Shown: positions 564 to 16,182 of the stretch, piece by piece
Position numbering within the stretch: position 1 is the stretch's first letter
Layout of the letters: every line of letters begins with the position of its first letter
From: Rodentolepis nana
Lineage: Eukaryota > Platyhelminthes > Cestoda > Cyclophyllidea > Hymenolepididae
Length of the DNA: 16,609 bases
Assembly (NCBI GenBank): GCA_900617975.1
Contig: UZAE01000935.1
Span: 1-16,609 of the forward strand
Reading direction: 5' to 3'
Notes under the pieces: generated by a model
Seen by the model: only the letters and a program-made list of their open reading frames with translations
Databases searched by the model: none
What the model was told of the DNA's origin: nothing
Translations under genes and position numbers: made by a program

Positions 564-913
564 ATTTATTTATTTCAAATGGCAGGCATTTTGATAGTCA
601 TCATTAGCCCTTTAGTTGACTTCGGGCTTCACAGAAGGGAGGAACATTAAAGTGAGAAGAATTCTACAGGGGAAAAGAAGAGCGATTCACAGATGTAAAA
701 GACAGCAGACAGACACAAAGTCAGAGAAAAGGCTAGATGAGTACTGTGGGACACAAAGGCAGAGAAAAGGCTAGATGAGTACTATGAAGGGGTCGAATAT
801 GACATACAGTGGGGTTATGGTAGTTTGGAAGTCAGAAGTCAATAGACTTTTTTGTCGTATGAATATACGTTGCCCAGAGTGCACCACGTGGAGGTAAGTC
901 TATTGCACACCCC
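564..913 (-). mobile_element. Ribozyme-headed short retroelement (family S), copy S1
   Basis: A minus-strand copy, so the + strand reads tail first. The (TTTA)n tail at 564-575 is followed by the conserved 3' block (TTTCAAATGGCAGGC, then CATTAGCCCTTTAG), a purine-rich middle (pyrimidine-rich in RNA sense) and the ribozyme head ending at the CCCC of 910-913, which is G1-G4 on the RNA strand. The middle carries a 38-bp tandem duplication (713-750 and 751-788, near identical) not seen in other copies. About 9 nt after the ribozyme are missing relative to sister copies. The element has no ORF and must move in trans. The LINE with the same ends (copies near 4022 and 9092) is the obvious partner, by inference. 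No clean target-site duplication is visible, because extra head units are fused to its 5' end (914-1116). Confidence 0.85.
841..913 (-). ncRNA. HDV-like self-cleaving ribozyme, head of copy S1
   Basis: On the minus strand G1 is at 913. P1 is GGGGUGU against GCACUCU and has one mismatch. P2 is CAAUAGACUU against AAGUCUAUUG, 10 bp. P3 is ACC/GGU with a 7-nt loop. The joining strand is GGGCAA, P4 is CGUAU-AUUC-AUACG, and J4/2 is ACAAAA with the candidate catalytic C at 854. P2 is longer than in other copies because two flanking positions are A-U and C-G here. The fold was found by eye. The P1 mismatch may slow cleavage. Confidence 0.7.
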
Positions 914-1778: not shown

Positions 1779-2141
1779 TATTTATTTATTTCAGATGGCT
1801 GGCGTTTTGATAGTTATCATTAGCCCTTTAGTTGACTTCGGGGTTCAGAGAAAGGAGGAACATTAAAGTGAGAAAAAATCGTTCAGAGAAAGGATGAGAA
1901 ACATCAATGTGGCAAAAGTTGAGAGGGGACAGAATAACGATTCAAAGATGTAAAAGAGACAGACAGACACAGAAGCAGAGGAAAAGTAAGTTGAGTACTG
2001 TGGAAAGGGTCGAATTTGACATACAGTTTGGTCATGGTAGTTTGAAGACAGAAGTCAACTGCCGATTAATAGACTTTTTTGCCGTTTGAGTATACGTTCC
2101 CCCTGGGTGCACCACACGGTGATAAGTCTATCCCACACCCC
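1779..2141 (-). mobile_element. Ribozyme-headed short retroelement (family S), copy S2
   Basis: A full-length minus-strand insertion of 363 bp bounded by a 12-bp exact target-site duplication. The + strand reads: (TTTA)n tail, TTTCAGATGGCTGGC and CATTAGCCCTTTAG 3' block, a purine-rich middle slightly longer than in other copies (it has a unique insertion containing GATGAGAAACATC), then the head ending in CCCC at 2138-2141. The first base on the RNA strand is the predicted ribozyme G1 and touches the duplication with no extra base. This is one of the best boundary definitions in the window. The short open frame across its right half is repeat sequence, not a gene. Confidence 0.9.
2069..2141 (-). 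ncRNA. Degenerate HDV-like ribozyme, head of copy S2
   Basis: P2 (AUAGACUU/AAGUCUAU) and the J4/2 GGCAAAAA are intact. P3 is broken (AUC against GGU), P1' ends in A so the G1 pair is lost, the GGGCAAC strand reads AGGGGGAAC, and P4 has one mismatch. It was probably active when the copy inserted and has since decayed. Confidence 0.6.
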
Positions 2142-4008: not shown

Positions 4009-4021
4009 TGAGAAGGAGAAA
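4009..4021. repeat. Target-site duplication, left copy (mini-LINE)
   Basis: TGAGAAGGAGAAA is repeated exactly at 4358-4370 and abuts both ends of the insertion at 4022-4357. It is a complex sequence, so chance is unlikely. Confidence 0.95.
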
Positions 4022-4068
4022 TTATTATTATTTCAAATGGCAGGCTTTGTGATATTTATCATTAGCCC

Positions 4069-4254
4069 TTAAACTTTGACTTCAGCTTCCCCCAAGGGTG
4101 GGGGGGGGGGTACATCATAGGTTTGTAGGATTTTCTCTACTTGGATCTTCTTGTCCGGTGACATTCCTCCAGCATTCCACTGGAGGATCTGAAGACGTTG
4201 TGATTCGCCCTGACGAGGACGATTTCTCTTATAGCCTTTTTTCAAGCTAATCAT
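4069..4254 (-). pseudogene. Remnant of LINE ORF: endonuclease N-terminus fused to 3' UTR
   Basis: The minus-strand ATG at 4254 opens a 61-codon frame. Residues 1-21 are basic (K/R-rich). The segment QILQWNAGGMSPDKK at about residues 22-36 has the QWNAxG start typical of APE-like endonucleases of non-LTR retrotransposons, where the N is a conserved active-site position. After about 48 residues the frame leaves coding sequence and reads through the C-tract of the 3' UTR (a run of prolines) to a stop. The rest of the endonuclease, the reverse transcriptase and the C-terminus are deleted, so no enzyme is made. The ATG lies only about 100 nt from the element's first base, with endonuclease motifs following almost at once. 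This suggests a single-ORF LINE or one with its first ORF lost. The clade is not determinable from this fragment. Confidence 0.8.
4089..4110 (-). promoter_or_regulatory. C-tract/G5 hairpin in LINE 3' UTR (mini-LINE)
   Basis: In RNA sense a long C tract (complement of 4100-4110) is followed by ACCCTT and GGGGG (complement of 4089-4093), able to pair as a short C5/G5 hairpin. The same arrangement occurs in the second LINE copy (9163-9180). A role in 3' UTR recognition by the reverse transcriptase is inference. Confidence 0.45.
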
Positions 4255-4285
4255 AATAAATCGAAGTCAAATCAAATGCCGAGTG

Positions 4286-4357
4286 ATAGACTTTTTTGCC
4301 GTACGAAGATACGTTGTCCAGGGTGCATCACGTGGAGGTAAGTCTATCTCACACCCC
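4286..4357 (-). ncRNA. HDV-like self-cleaving ribozyme at the LINE 5' end
   Basis: Minus strand, G1 at 4357 directly next to the target-site duplication. P1 is GGGGUGU/GCACCCU (7 bp, G1•U). P2 is GAUAGACUU/AAGUCUAUC, 9 bp; the outer pair is G-C here but G•U in S copies. P3 has one mismatch (ACC against GAU) and L3 is UCCACGU. The joining strand is GGACAA, P4 is CGUAU-CUUC-GUACG (a U•G closing pair in place of U-A), and J4/2 is GCAAAA with the candidate catalytic C at 4298. It is the same fold as in family S, on a LINE, as established for R2 and several other non-LTR elements. The P3 mismatch may reduce activity. Confidence 0.8.
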
Positions 4358-4370
4358 TGAGAAGGAGAAA
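4358..4370. repeat. Target-site duplication, right copy (mini-LINE)
   Basis: Exact copy of the 13 bases at 4009-4021, immediately after the CCCC that is G1-G4 of the ribozyme on the other strand. Confidence 0.95.
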
Positions 4371-5766
4371 TAAAATCGGAAATAGCACTTTGGGCTTTAC
4401 ACCCCACTTTGCGAATAAACGCATGAACTTTCGAAGCAGGAATATACATTTAATCTCCAATTCAACCCAACATTAATTGTCTTAATACTTTAACGCATTG
4501 ATTGAAAGGTCTTGCATTTTAATTGAAAGTATTTACATGACTAGAGTACAATAGTGATAGTGGTAAACATTTTCCTATTATCCACATTTGATCCCATTCT
4601 CTAGAGGCTTCTAAAAATAATCATTTCCTTACCACGTGTTAGAGAAATAGTTGTTATTACTACCCTTATTATGTTCAAACGTAAAGCTGATCACGATCAA
4701 GACAATTTATTCCCAAAGAGGTTAATTGATGACCCGACAAGGGTGCTAGTAATCTCTATTATAGTCACCTTCCTGACACGGCTTTACAATTTTTTTGCCT
4801 TCAATGAATTCTTTTTCCACACTCACTTTTAGACGTTCTGAATTGGAAGGGTTAGTTGTACGCTGTACAAAATCTGGAAACATTCGCTTTCCAAGGTGGT
4901 ATCATCTACATTCACGCAAATTTATTACGTAGCCATCTCTAATAACGGCAGCCACATGGAAACTTCTTCAGACAGAGCAAAGTTTATATTGGGTTATTTT
5001 AATATCTACTGTACATCTTTGATCGCTTACTCTTATATGAAATAAAGGAACACAACGGCCCACTTGACATTTCAGGAAATTACCTTTGAATTTACAGATA
5101 GAAGAATTTATGTAACAAATAAGGGGACCGATATGGGCATTATATTAGGAATAAAATGGTGATTCTCAGACTAGATTTATATAAATATATTCTTATTTTG
5201 GTCATTTTTATTTATGGGATGGAAATTGCGTGCAGGAAAAGTAGAAAGCTTCAAAAAGGGGTTGACAGAAAGTCTGGGTGATCAAAGAAAAACAATGAAA
5301 ATTGATTTTTCAAGAGTCTAGCCCCATTCAAACTCAAGCAGTGTTGTAGAGCCAACTTTCATGTAGTATTAGTAGAAGCAGTAGAAGCGGTAATTCTCTT
5401 TGTTCTATCAAAACGCTTCACAAATGTTCCTTCATAGAATGTTTCAATCAATTTACACAATTTGGAGGAAAGGCATATTAACTAAATTTCCAGCCCAGTT
5501 TGCTAAATTCTAGCTCCATCAACCAGCTAAATAATTCATAAAGTTATTTTCAACTTCTTATAAATTATTCATGGAAAATTAATTTTTATCCCTATTCACT
5601 CTTGGTACTACTTCATCAATACAATCTGCCCCAGTCACCTGGAATAACTTGGAATAATTAAAATAATGAAAAATAAGTTGTCTCAAAAATATGAGAAGTT
5701 AAATGGGACAAAGAATTTCAACTGAATGTCTCAACATAAGCATACATTTGAGCTCAATTCAGTCTT
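4371..5766. other. No recognisable gene
   Basis: AT-rich sequence. Between about 4745 and 4975 the minus strand has a protein-like frame interrupted by one TGA (segments such as LGKRMFPDFVQRTTNP and VSVEKEFIEGKKIVKP). I cannot assign it to a family. It is either a decayed exon or chance. No repeats or RNA genes were recognised. Confidence 0.5.
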
Positions 5767-5775
5767 TCCCACAAT

Positions 5776-5850
5776 GAGGTGGGCGATAAATTAACCTCCA
5801 TGTGGTGCACCCTGGGCAACGTATTCTCATATGGCAAAAACGTTTGTTAT
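5776..5850 (+). ncRNA. Decayed HDV-like ribozyme, head of copy S4
   Basis: The core CCTGGGCAACGTAT and the J4/2 GGCAAAAA survive. P1 has two mismatches (GAGGUGG against GCACCCU), P2 is eroded (AUAAAUU against a changed 3' strand), and the end of P4 reads AUAUG. It is recognisable by descent and unlikely to cleave. Confidence 0.55.
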
Positions 5851-8421: not shown

Positions 8422-8494
8422 GGGGAGCTCAATAGACTTACTTTCACATGGTGCACCCTAAGCAACGTATACTCAAACGGCAAAGAAAGTCCAT
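8422..8494 (+). ncRNA. Decayed HDV-like ribozyme, head of copy S5
   Basis: P2 (AAUAGACUU against AAGUCCAU) and the P1' strand GCACCCU are recognisable. P1 is interrupted (GGGGAGC), L3 is changed, the joining strand reads AAGCAAC so P1.1 is lost, and P4 has one mismatch. Probably inactive. Confidence 0.5.
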
Positions 8495-9091: not shown

Positions 9092-9162
9092 ATTATTATT
9101 ATTATTTCAAATGGCAGGCTTTGTGATATTTATCATTAGCCCTTAATCTTTGACTTCAGCTT

Positions 9163-9180
9163 CCCCCAAGAGGGGGGGGG
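9163..9180 (-). promoter_or_regulatory. C-tract/G5 hairpin in LINE 3' UTR
   Basis: In RNA sense C9 (complement of 9172-9180), then TCTT and GGGGG (complement of 9163-9167), able to form a C5/G5 hairpin just upstream of the shared tail. It has the same position and form in the mini-LINE despite differing C-tract length. Confidence 0.45.
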
Positions 9181-9198
9181 TACATTTAAAGCAGTTAA

Positions 9199-9447
9199 TT
9201 AATAGCAGTTCATTAGCCGTCTTCTTGCTTCCCAGTATCTCTGGCTTTCCATCGATGTCCTTAGGGCTGGACACCGAATCAGGTGGGTCTTCTCCATTTC
9301 CTTGTGTAGGTTACATAAGGGGCATGTGGGTTGAGTGTATACTCCCAATCTGTGAAGATGTTTTGCCAAGCAATCGTGGCCAGTACGTAGTCCAAACTCT
9401 GCAACGGCTTCGATTCTTGGCCAGTCGGCTATATCGGAGAGTGCCAC
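9199..9447 (-). pseudogene. C-terminal fragment of non-LTR retrotransposon polyprotein
   Basis: A minus-strand frame of 82 codons ending at TAA 9199-9201. It stays open to an upstream stop at 9532-9534 but has no genuine start. The segment DWPRIEAVAEF, then LRTGHDCLAKHLHRLG, is followed by a zinc-knuckle-like CPLC-x9-H-x3-C. This is the layout seen at the extreme C-terminus of many arthropod APE-type LINEs, after the RT (and RNase H where present). It ends RYWEARRRLM. The knuckle is thought to bind nucleic acid during target-primed reverse transcription. Everything N-terminal is missing through 5' truncation, so it is not functional alone. The frame lies on the strand opposite a longer but meaningless plus-strand frame (9150-9506). 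Confidence 0.85.
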
Positions 9448-9630: not shown

Positions 9631-9701
9631 GGGGTGTGCGATAGACTTACCTCCACGTGGTGCACCCTGGGCAACGTATACTCATACGGCAAAAAGTCTA
9701 T
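9631..9701 (+). ncRNA. HDV-like self-cleaving ribozyme, head of copy S6 (reference copy)
   Basis: All elements of the fold are present in 71 nt. P1 is 9631-9637 GGGGUGU with 9662-9668 GCACCCU (7 bp, G1•U and U•G ends). J1/2 is GCG. P2 is 9641-9648 AUAGACUU with 9694-9701 AAGUCUAU. P3 is ACC (9649-9651) with GGU (9659-9661). L3 is the 7-nt UCCACGU, whose CC can pair with GG at 9669-9670 as P1.1. The strand GGGCAA (9669-9674) precedes P4, CGUAU-ACUC-AUACG (9675-9688). J4/2 is GCAAA with the candidate catalytic C at 9690. Cleavage would occur just 5' of G9631, the first base of the element. The fold order and catalytic C context follow the established nested double-pseudoknot of HDV-like ribozymes found in R2, RTE and trypanosomatid retroelements. 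Activity is not shown here. Confidence 0.88.
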
Positions 9702-9959
9702 TAACTGGCAATTGACTTCTGACTTCAAACTGCCATGATCCCACTGTATGTCATATTCGACTACTTTCACAGTACTCACCTCACCTTCCCTTTTCTCTAC
9801 CTGTGTGTCTGTCTCTTACATCTTTGAAACACTCCTCTCTTCCCCTTCTCAACTTTTTCAATTTGATGTTCCTTCCCCTCTGTGAAGTCTGAAGTCAACT
9901 AAAGGGCTAATGATAACCATCAAGACGCCTGCCATATGATATAAATAAATAAATAAATA
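9631..9959 (+). mobile_element. Ribozyme-headed short retroelement (family S), copy S6, near consensus
   Basis: The cleanest plus-strand copy. It has the ribozyme head (9631-9701), the segment GACTTCTGACTTCAAACT, a CATATTCGAC block, a pyrimidine-rich middle (ACCTTCCCTTTTCTC, GTGTGTCTGTCTC) and the 3' block (CTCTGTGAAGTC, CTAAAGGGCTAATGATAA, GCCTGCCATATG), then an (ATAA)n tail. The bases just outside, TATAATATTGAAAT on the left and TATAATTGGAAAT on the right, look like an imperfect target duplication. It contains no ORF. T4-T5 runs inside the body argue against a polymerase III transcript. Ribozyme processing from a longer RNA is the more natural way to make its 5' end. Confidence 0.9.
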
Positions 9960-10345
9960 TAATTGGAAATTTAAAATTGACTTAATTTCAAATATATTCA
10001 GCATTTGCTGGAATACGGAAATACGAGCCGTTTTTCAATCGAGATCCGAATGCACTTAACTCGCATTGAAGAGCTAAAAAACTGGATATTTAACGATGTC
10101 CTACCACTCAATACTTCTAGATCTTAGCTACAGTTTTTTTCTCCCGTAAATCCCTAAGAAAATCTCAGCTATCAAACTCTTAGAACAGTCGAGTTGAGTG
10201 CTTATTGTTTTGAAATAGTAATTTAATTATTTTGCTCTGAGAAAACCAAATTCTCTCTTTTCACTTTTCCTTTGATGATGATTCAGTCTTCAAAGTTCTG
10301 TCATTATTTAAGAATATTCAAACCTGTGACTAATTAAATTTAATT
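9960..10345. other. No recognisable gene
   Basis: AT-rich spacer between the tails of S6 (+) and S7 (-). No RNA gene or ORF was recognised. The two flanking copies are in inverted tail-to-tail orientation. Confidence 0.5.
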
Positions 10346-10800
10346 AATTTATTTATTTATTTCAAATAACAGGCATATTGGTAGTCAACATTAGCCCTTT
10401 AGCTGACTTTGGACTTCGCAGATGTAAAGTGAAAGATAGTCACTTAGGCAGAGAAAAGGTAAGATAAGTACTGTGGAAGTGGTGGAATATGAGGCACAGT
10501 GAGGTCATGGTAATTTGAAATCAGAAGTCAACTGCCGGTTTATTGACTTTTTTCCCGTATGAGTATACGTTGCCCAGGGTGCACGCCGTTTGAGTATACG
10601 TTGTCCAGGGTGCACCACCTGGAGGTAAGTCTATCGTGAGTATACGTTGCCCAGGGTGCACCACGTGGAGGTGTATGAGTATACATTGCCCAGGGTGCAC
10701 CACGTGGAGGTAGCCGAATGAGAATACGTTGCCCAGGGTGCACCACGTGGAGGTAAGGTGTGAGTATACGTTGCCCAGGGTGCACCACGTGGAGGTAAGT
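10346..10800 (-). mobile_element. Ribozyme-headed short retroelement (family S), copy S7, with multimerised head
   Basis: A minus-strand copy. On + it reads: (TTTA)n tail, TTTCAAATAACAGGC and CATTAGCCCTTTAG 3' block, a shortened middle, then a head that continues into six partial ribozyme units. The middle lacks about 70 bp between two TTCACAGA-like repeats present in full copies (here fused as CTTCGCAGATG), an apparent deletion between short direct repeats. The outer 5' boundary lies in the P2 strand (GGTAAGT), so the terminal GGGG is missing. AAACCTG occurs just outside both ends (10320-10326 and 10802-10808) and may be a short target duplication, though on the left it is separated from the tail by AT-rich bases. 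Confidence 0.85.
10561..10800 (-). repeat. Tandem array of six ribozyme-core units
   Basis: Six units, each containing TATACGTTGCCCAGGGTGCA or a close variant followed (except in the first) by CCACGTGGAGGT. They run at about 10561-10584, 10585-10636, 10637-10672, 10673-10712, 10713-10760 and 10761-10800. Unit lengths differ because joins are not at a fixed point: units end at GCAC, CTATCG, GGTGT, GGTA or GGTAAGGTG and restart at GCCGTTTGAG, TGAG, GTATGAG or GCCGAATGAG. In ribozyme terms each unit covers P3-P1'-joining strand-P4 with a variable part of P2. None has the 5' P1 strand, so none should self-cleave. Translations of this array give meaningless repetitive frames. Confidence 0.9.
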
Positions 10801-11152: not shown

Positions 11153-11223
11153 GGGGTGCGCGATAGACTTACCTCCACGTGGTGCACCCTGGGCATCGTA
11201 TTCTCATACGGCAAAAAGTCTAT
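11153..11223 (+). ncRNA. HDV-like self-cleaving ribozyme, head of copy S8
   Basis: P1 is 11153-11159 GGGGUGC with 11184-11190 GCACCCU, giving a C-G pair where S6 has U•G. P2 is 11163-11170 with 11216-11223, P3 is ACC/GGU, and L3 is UCCACGU. The joining strand is GGGCAU (A to U at the last base), P4 is CGUAU-UCUC-AUACG, and J4/2 is GCAAA with catalytic C candidate at 11212. Structurally complete and likely among the best copies to assay. Confidence 0.85.
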
Positions 11224-16111: not shown

Positions 16112-16182
16112 GGGGTGTGCGATAGACTTACCTCCACATGGTGGGCCCTGGGCAACGTATACTCATACGGCAAAAAGTCTAT
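16112..16182 (+). ncRNA. HDV-like ribozyme, head of copy S9, weakened P1
   Basis: P2, P3, L3, joining strand GGGCAA, P4 and J4/2 (catalytic C candidate at 16171) match the S6 reference. P1' reads GGGCCCU instead of GCACCCU, so P1 has one G-G mismatch and an extra U•G pair. It is probably impaired. Confidence 0.7.

Follow-up and report, generated by a model that had tools for sequence, protein, structure and literature searches.

HDV-like self-cleaving ribozymes are reported to cleave at the 5' junction of a number of non-LTR retrotransposons, namely R2 of the fruit fly, R4, Dong, baggins, RTE and L1Tc (PMC3774820), and likewise at that of some NARTc and SIDER short elements (PMC4035085); a review names 5'-end processing as their likely role (PMC7761336). 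In the trypanosomatid system of L1Tc/ingi with NARTc, RIME and SIDER, as the account of Pr77 describes it, an HDV-like ribozyme is located within the initial ~77 nt both of a LINE possessing AP endonuclease, RT and RNase H and of its abundant short truncated derivatives, and cleavage takes place just upstream of the ribozyme (PMC4035085). The SIDEs of R2 and R2/R1 in Drosophila are described as combining a 5' HDV-like ribozyme with the 3' end of a LINE, and the same source calls non-LTR SIDEs rare in general (PMC3414825).

The family described here, found in a stretch of 16,609 nucleotides ("the window") and in the 107 Mb genome assembly (4701 contigs) that we searched, resembles the L1Tc/ingi system in its LINE domains, its short elements and, as far as the published description of Pr77 allows the comparison, in a predicted cleavage site just upstream of the ribozyme. 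It differs in that the host is probably a flatworm and the middle of the short element has no recognised origin. The R2 SIDEs are confined to fixed rDNA sites and co-transcribed with 28S (PMC3414825), whereas the present elements are dispersed, numerous and flanked by duplications of variable targets. R4, Dong, baggins and RTE share with them cleavage at the 5' junction of the element, predicted in our case, but the report on these elements, in the parts that concern us, describes no dispersed short derivative (PMC3774820). The device and its use are therefore already known, being reported for R2, R4, Dong, baggins, RTE, L1Tc, NARTc/SIDER and the R2 SIDEs. What is new is the element family, its probable host, the occurrence of a dispersed and numerous ribozyme-headed short family in an animal, and, beside it, a LINE with endonuclease, RT and RNase H that bears the same head. 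A search of the open-licence literature, which leaves out most subscription papers, revealed no dispersed animal case of this kind. The copies recognised in the window are as follows (heads are scored against the 25 pairs of the fold).

9631..9701, plus strand: HDV-like ribozyme head, predicted to be cut 5' of G9631, with C9690 (position 60) as predicted catalytic C
9631..9960, plus strand: complete short non-autonomous element with ribozyme head and LINE-like 5' UTR to about nt 97
842..913, minus strand: ribozyme head, 25/25 pairs, top Rfam score of the window (43.1 bits); element to about 555
2069..2141, minus strand: damaged ribozyme head, 23/25 pairs, no Rfam match; element to about 1779
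4023..4357, minus strand: internally deleted LINE copy, with 93% identity to the LINE copy L063 both before and after the deletion
4286..4357, minus strand: ribozyme head of this LINE-type copy, 24/25 pairs (pair scoring and Rfam match)
5776..5850, plus strand: ribozyme head damaged in P1 and P2, 21/25 pairs; element to about 6099
8422..8494, plus strand: damaged ribozyme head with P1 broken, 21/25 pairs; short element to about 8635
9095..9447, minus strand: 5'-truncated LINE copy, comprising the C-terminal CPLC...H...C part of the ORF and the LINE 3' end
10342..10800, minus strand: short element with a head repeated in partial units 30-46 nt apart
11153..11223, plus strand: ribozyme head, 25/25 pairs, A to T at position 44; element to about 11471
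16112..16182, plus strand: ribozyme head, 24/25 pairs, mismatch G6xG33 in P1; element to about 16410

Pair-by-pair scoring of positions 9631-9701 (+) reveals a full HDV-like double pseudoknot, in which P1, P1.1, P2, P3 and P4 are nested in the correct order and all 25 pairs are standard. P1 comprises 7 bp (GGGGUGU/GCACCCU) with the wobble G1-U38, and is connected by J1/2 (GCG) to P2, which has 8 bp (AUAGACUU/AAGUCUAU). P3 has 3 bp (ACC/GGU) and is closed by the loop L3 (UCCACGU); P1.1 is formed by C23-G40 and C24-G39 (CC/GG) and followed by G-CAA; P4 (CGUAU/AUACG) carries the 4-nt loop ACUC, and J4/2 reads G-C60-AAA. An earlier note on this stretch, made by reading the letters, had claimed the whole plan for this 71-nt segment, with a 7-bp P1 containing G1•U, an 8-bp P2, a 3-bp P3 with 7-nt L3, P1.1, P4 and J4/2, and every one of these elements is present, with no mismatch. 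The eight heads that it listed all exist, the first of them at 842-913 rather than 841-913, but only three are fully paired (842-913, 9631-9701 and 11153-11223), the other five having from 1 to 4 broken pairs. The head at 2069-2141, for instance, has lost the cleavage-site pair (G1/G38) and one pair of P4, and has G for C42; the copy that the note designated S8 for cleavage tests, presumably the eighth listed head (16112), carries the G6xG33 mismatch in P1. The nested-only folding energy of the head is ordinary in comparison with shuffled sequences (z -0.34), as calculated with a program that is unable to form pseudoknots; in the best structure of this kind P1 and P4 are present, while nt 8-9 pair with nucleotides of P3' instead of P3.

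The most telling point obtainable from the sequence is the location of the 5' end of the element. Among 28 distinct short-element loci (the 30 best matches minus the two duplicates L012 and L023), 13 are flanked by exact target-site duplications of at least 10 nt (11-19 nt), a length reached by 0 of 756 mismatched (permuted) pairs of flanks. In 11 of these 13 the duplication stops at the base before G1; the two exceptions are L010, which lacks the first two bases, and L016, which has one extra base. The remaining 15 loci, including the 9631 copy, have no exact duplication of at least 10 nt; flank matches of 8-9 nt occur in two of them, and are also reached by 10 of the 756 mismatched pairs. 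HDV-like ribozymes are stated to cleave at the first nucleotide of P1 (PMC4908430), and hence the end of the element and the predicted cut coincide to the base. Target-site duplications of variable length, together with the simple 3' tail (AAAT)n, identify the elements as non-LTR retroelements, i.e. products of TPRT.

The truncated LINE end at 9095-9447 was traced through the genome, which led to LINE copies that have the same ribozyme starting at their first base, directly upstream of a reading frame whose first part encodes an APE-type endonuclease (L061, L063); an in-frame ATG is found at nt 104. In all 20 LINE 5' ends read, a biased sample because they ranked high in a search whose query contained the head, GGGG stands at the boundary after unrelated flanks, although in six of the 20 the flank itself ends in G, which makes the first base ambiguous there. 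That search gave 39 non-self alignments, 25 of which have G1 as their first base, while the remaining 14 begin no more than 5 nt away. Pfam searches identified PF14529 on L063, PF00078 and PF00075 on L061, PF00075 on L062 and PF00078 on L064; endonuclease, RT and RNase H make up the domain set of the I-superfamily (Ingi-like), here collected from pieces of different copies, since all copies read are incomplete (stops, gaps, deletions) and no intact autonomous LINE is among them. A duplication of 14 nt that runs up to G1 flanks the LINE copy L063; L061 has no exact target-site duplication. The head at 4286-4357, which had been counted with the short family, belongs to an internally deleted LINE (4023-4357) made of the ribozyme, the 5' UTR and the start of the endonuclease ORF (93% identity to nt 1-246 of L063), followed by the LINE 3' end (93%) and flanked by identical 14-nt duplications at 4009-4022 and 4358-4371, ending at G1; here the interior of a SIDE has been derived by deletion. 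The suggestion of the same device on a short non-autonomous family was right in kind but incomplete, as the head also starts the likely partner LINE and the ends of the short element are LINE-like. First-look searches returned 6539 candidates for the short element and another 3085 for the 5' end of the LINE, all unscored and not to be taken as copy counts.

Comparison of the short element with L063 reveals 90% identity over nt 1-71 and 81% over 86 aligned positions of the 3' end, and a weaker similarity of the 5' UTR continues to about nt 97, so that the 9631-9960 copy consists of the ribozyme head and LINE-like 5' UTR, a middle without recognised origin, a LINE-like 3' end and the (AAAT)n tail. 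None of the LINE pieces examined, which cover no whole LINE, matches the middle (nt ~98-245); the only matches to it within LINE loci are other short elements carried there. An origin of the middle from the LINE ORF was considered, and no convincing match was obtained. A tRNA-derived SINE was considered as well and rejected: ARAGORN finds no tRNA in the window, and cmscan of the window finds neither 7SL nor 5S. With its LINE-like ends, unmatched middle and lack of a tRNA gene, the short element is, as judged from its sequence, SIDE-like rather than a classical Pol III SINE, and it has the 5' ribozyme and the 3' end in common with a LINE that characterize SIDEs. In one copy (L036, 1575-1987) we observed the middle (nt ~74-163) repeated several times.

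A question that touches the partner and not the ribozyme is whether a different LINE mobilises the short element, its similar ends reflecting only descent from the present one. The unmatched middle (nt ~98-245) and 3' ends that are only 81% alike would fit such a history, but the two elements have both ends in common, and insertions flanked by duplications and starting at G1 are found for either type, which makes another partner unlikely.

Rearranged copies are found beside the regular ones. Partial heads, spanning roughly P2/P3 to the P4 loop, are reiterated at two sites of the window (~934-1114 and 10605-10800, minus strand), with units spaced 30-81 nt apart; a further copy, L092, has a head with three reiterated units extending from P3' to J4/2. 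These arrays look as if reverse transcriptase had jumped between templates near the 5' end. Inspection by eye shows that at 913-950 the ribozyme-headed element that ends at 913 lies directly against a piece of the family's 3' end in opposite orientation, and that more partial heads follow up to 1114, forming a nest of rearranged copies.

A covariance-model search, which the earlier note had proposed as a check, was carried out with cmscan against Rfam, and the family RF02682 (HDV-F-prausnitzii) matches seven of the eight listed heads in the window, all except 2069-2141. The best matches are 842-911(-) with 43.1 bits (E 3.1e-5) and 9633-9701(+) with 40.2 bits (E 1.5e-4), followed by 5778(+) with 35.3, 4286(-) with 35.1, 11155(+) with 32.4 and 16114(+) with 30.9 bits, the weakest being 8424(+) with 19.4 bits (E 9.6); an additional match covers the rearranged head at 10542-10689(-) (23.9 bits, E 0.87). 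All matches in the window stay below the gathering score of 44. RF00094 matches four of the same heads with E from 0.07 to 3.5. In the same genome the gathering threshold is passed by 37 of 61 scored places, drawn from 25,212 first-look candidates, with a best score of 54.5 bits and E down to 1.1e-7; it is passed in none of 14 control genomes, a weak control in which those with names are prokaryotes. We read 20 of the 37 copies above the threshold, and in each of them the similarity to the short element (78-89% identity) extends well past the head, at least as far as nt 194; the heads of L095 and L104 are shortened and that of L092 is the reiterated one. RF02682 and RF00094 are bacterial and viral ribozyme models that share the fold of the head and differ from it in the lengths from P1 to P3; the RF02682 consensus CCUCUACGUGG is one base off the CCUCCACGUGG of the head. 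A strict descriptor, composed after the motif had been seen, is satisfied twice in the window, at 9631(+) and at 913(-), each of them the first base of an element. Searches of plasmids, viral contigs and contigs of prokaryote genomes returned no relatives, which says little because these collections are not of animals.

For an alignment of heads, we collected 114 core matches from the window and the genome, of which two were cut off and 21 were duplicates; from the remaining 91 we left out 11 (nine reiterated partial units and two 5'-truncated heads) and aligned 80, of which 68 are distinct, the 20 Rfam-best copies standing outside the alignment. The predicted catalytic C60 is kept in 65 of the 68 distinct heads, the following A61 in all 68 and the cleavage-site pair G1-U38 in 59, counts that lean toward intact heads because the loci examined were the best matches to the query. 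Standard pairs fill 1595 of 1700 paired cells, which is no evidence of selection on the pairs, because 146 of 500 column shuffles reach this value; the absence of covariation in 68 heads of one family is as expected for neutrally decaying copies. LINE heads (L065-L084) differ from those of the short element at position 7 of P1 (U or C opposite G), at position 25 in L3, by G41 to A, and in the loop and closing pair of P4, while another LINE type (L061 and 4286 in the window) has the P4 loop CUUC closed by a U-G pair.

The principal rival to a ribozyme that sets the 5' end is a promoter or translation element at this position, the HDV-like fold being a relic or a side function. Transcription starting at G1 (+1) would fix the 5' ends there equally well, and Pr77 is reported to be promoter and ribozyme at once (PMC4035085), so that the two functions need not exclude each other. 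A promoter, however, has no need of a double pseudoknot of 25 pairs or of the catalytic C and A positions, whereas the strict descriptor is still satisfied by 38 of the 80 heads and the Rfam threshold by 37 of the 61 scored places, and no tRNA-like head of the Pol III kind was recognised; we regard this alternative as quite improbable. That a ribozyme-like sequence arose by chance, or through the bias of our descriptor, and was then multiplied by copying is hardly credible: all copies do come from one ancestor and are therefore not independent, there is no covariation and the descriptor was written post hoc, but a curated model built from another source gives E 3e-5 in the window and down to 1.1e-7 in the genome, the descriptor has no match in 24 Mb of random sequence (order-1, with the composition of the window or of the heads), and the motif stands at the very first base of both the LINE and the short element.

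With the fold, the Rfam matches, a 5' end at the predicted cleavage site, the similar ends and the duplication-flanked insertions all observed, the head of 71-72 nt is very probably a self-cleaving ribozyme of the HDV-like type and constitutes the exact 5' end both of a LINE and of a SIDE-like family which this LINE most likely mobilises. An element lying in a transcribed region would be read through from an upstream promoter; the ribozyme would fold on emerging and cut 5' of G1, releasing an RNA that starts with GGGG. The LINE protein would then recognise the similar 3' end and the A-rich simple tail of the short RNA and copy it in trans at a nicked target, giving full-length copies with short target-site duplications.

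The host had been thought to be probably an arthropod. The COX1 gene in the same assembly (L105, contig C1797) argues otherwise, as it reads AAA as Asn, ATA as Ile and TGA as Trp: alignment with a solved COX1 places AAA at conserved Asn sites (e.g. the Asn of LLxDRN); the conserved Lys in the HK motif is encoded by AAG, and ATA stands where Ile fits. This codon use is that of the echinoderm/flatworm mitochondrial code, and the protein also resembles the COX1 of flatworms. If the COX1 contig comes from the same animal, a flatworm is the likeliest host.

The family thus adds a further case of an HDV-like ribozyme shared by a LINE and its short parasite, an arrangement known from trypanosomatids and from the rDNA-bound R2 SIDEs. 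Because it is numerous, dispersed and flanked by duplications, a large number of insertions can be examined, to the single base, for a 5' end set by the ribozyme. A more tentative reading, plausible in our view and still somewhat doubtful, is that the short element represents a Pol III-independent, dispersed, high-copy short retroelement of an animal, with a self-cleaving ribozyme as its sole recognisable 5' module, which spreads by riding on host transcripts and cutting itself free. If this reading is true, potential sites of self-cleavage may number in the thousands among the transcripts of the genome, and if cleavage does take place, insertions within genes on the sense strand would cut the transcripts of the host.
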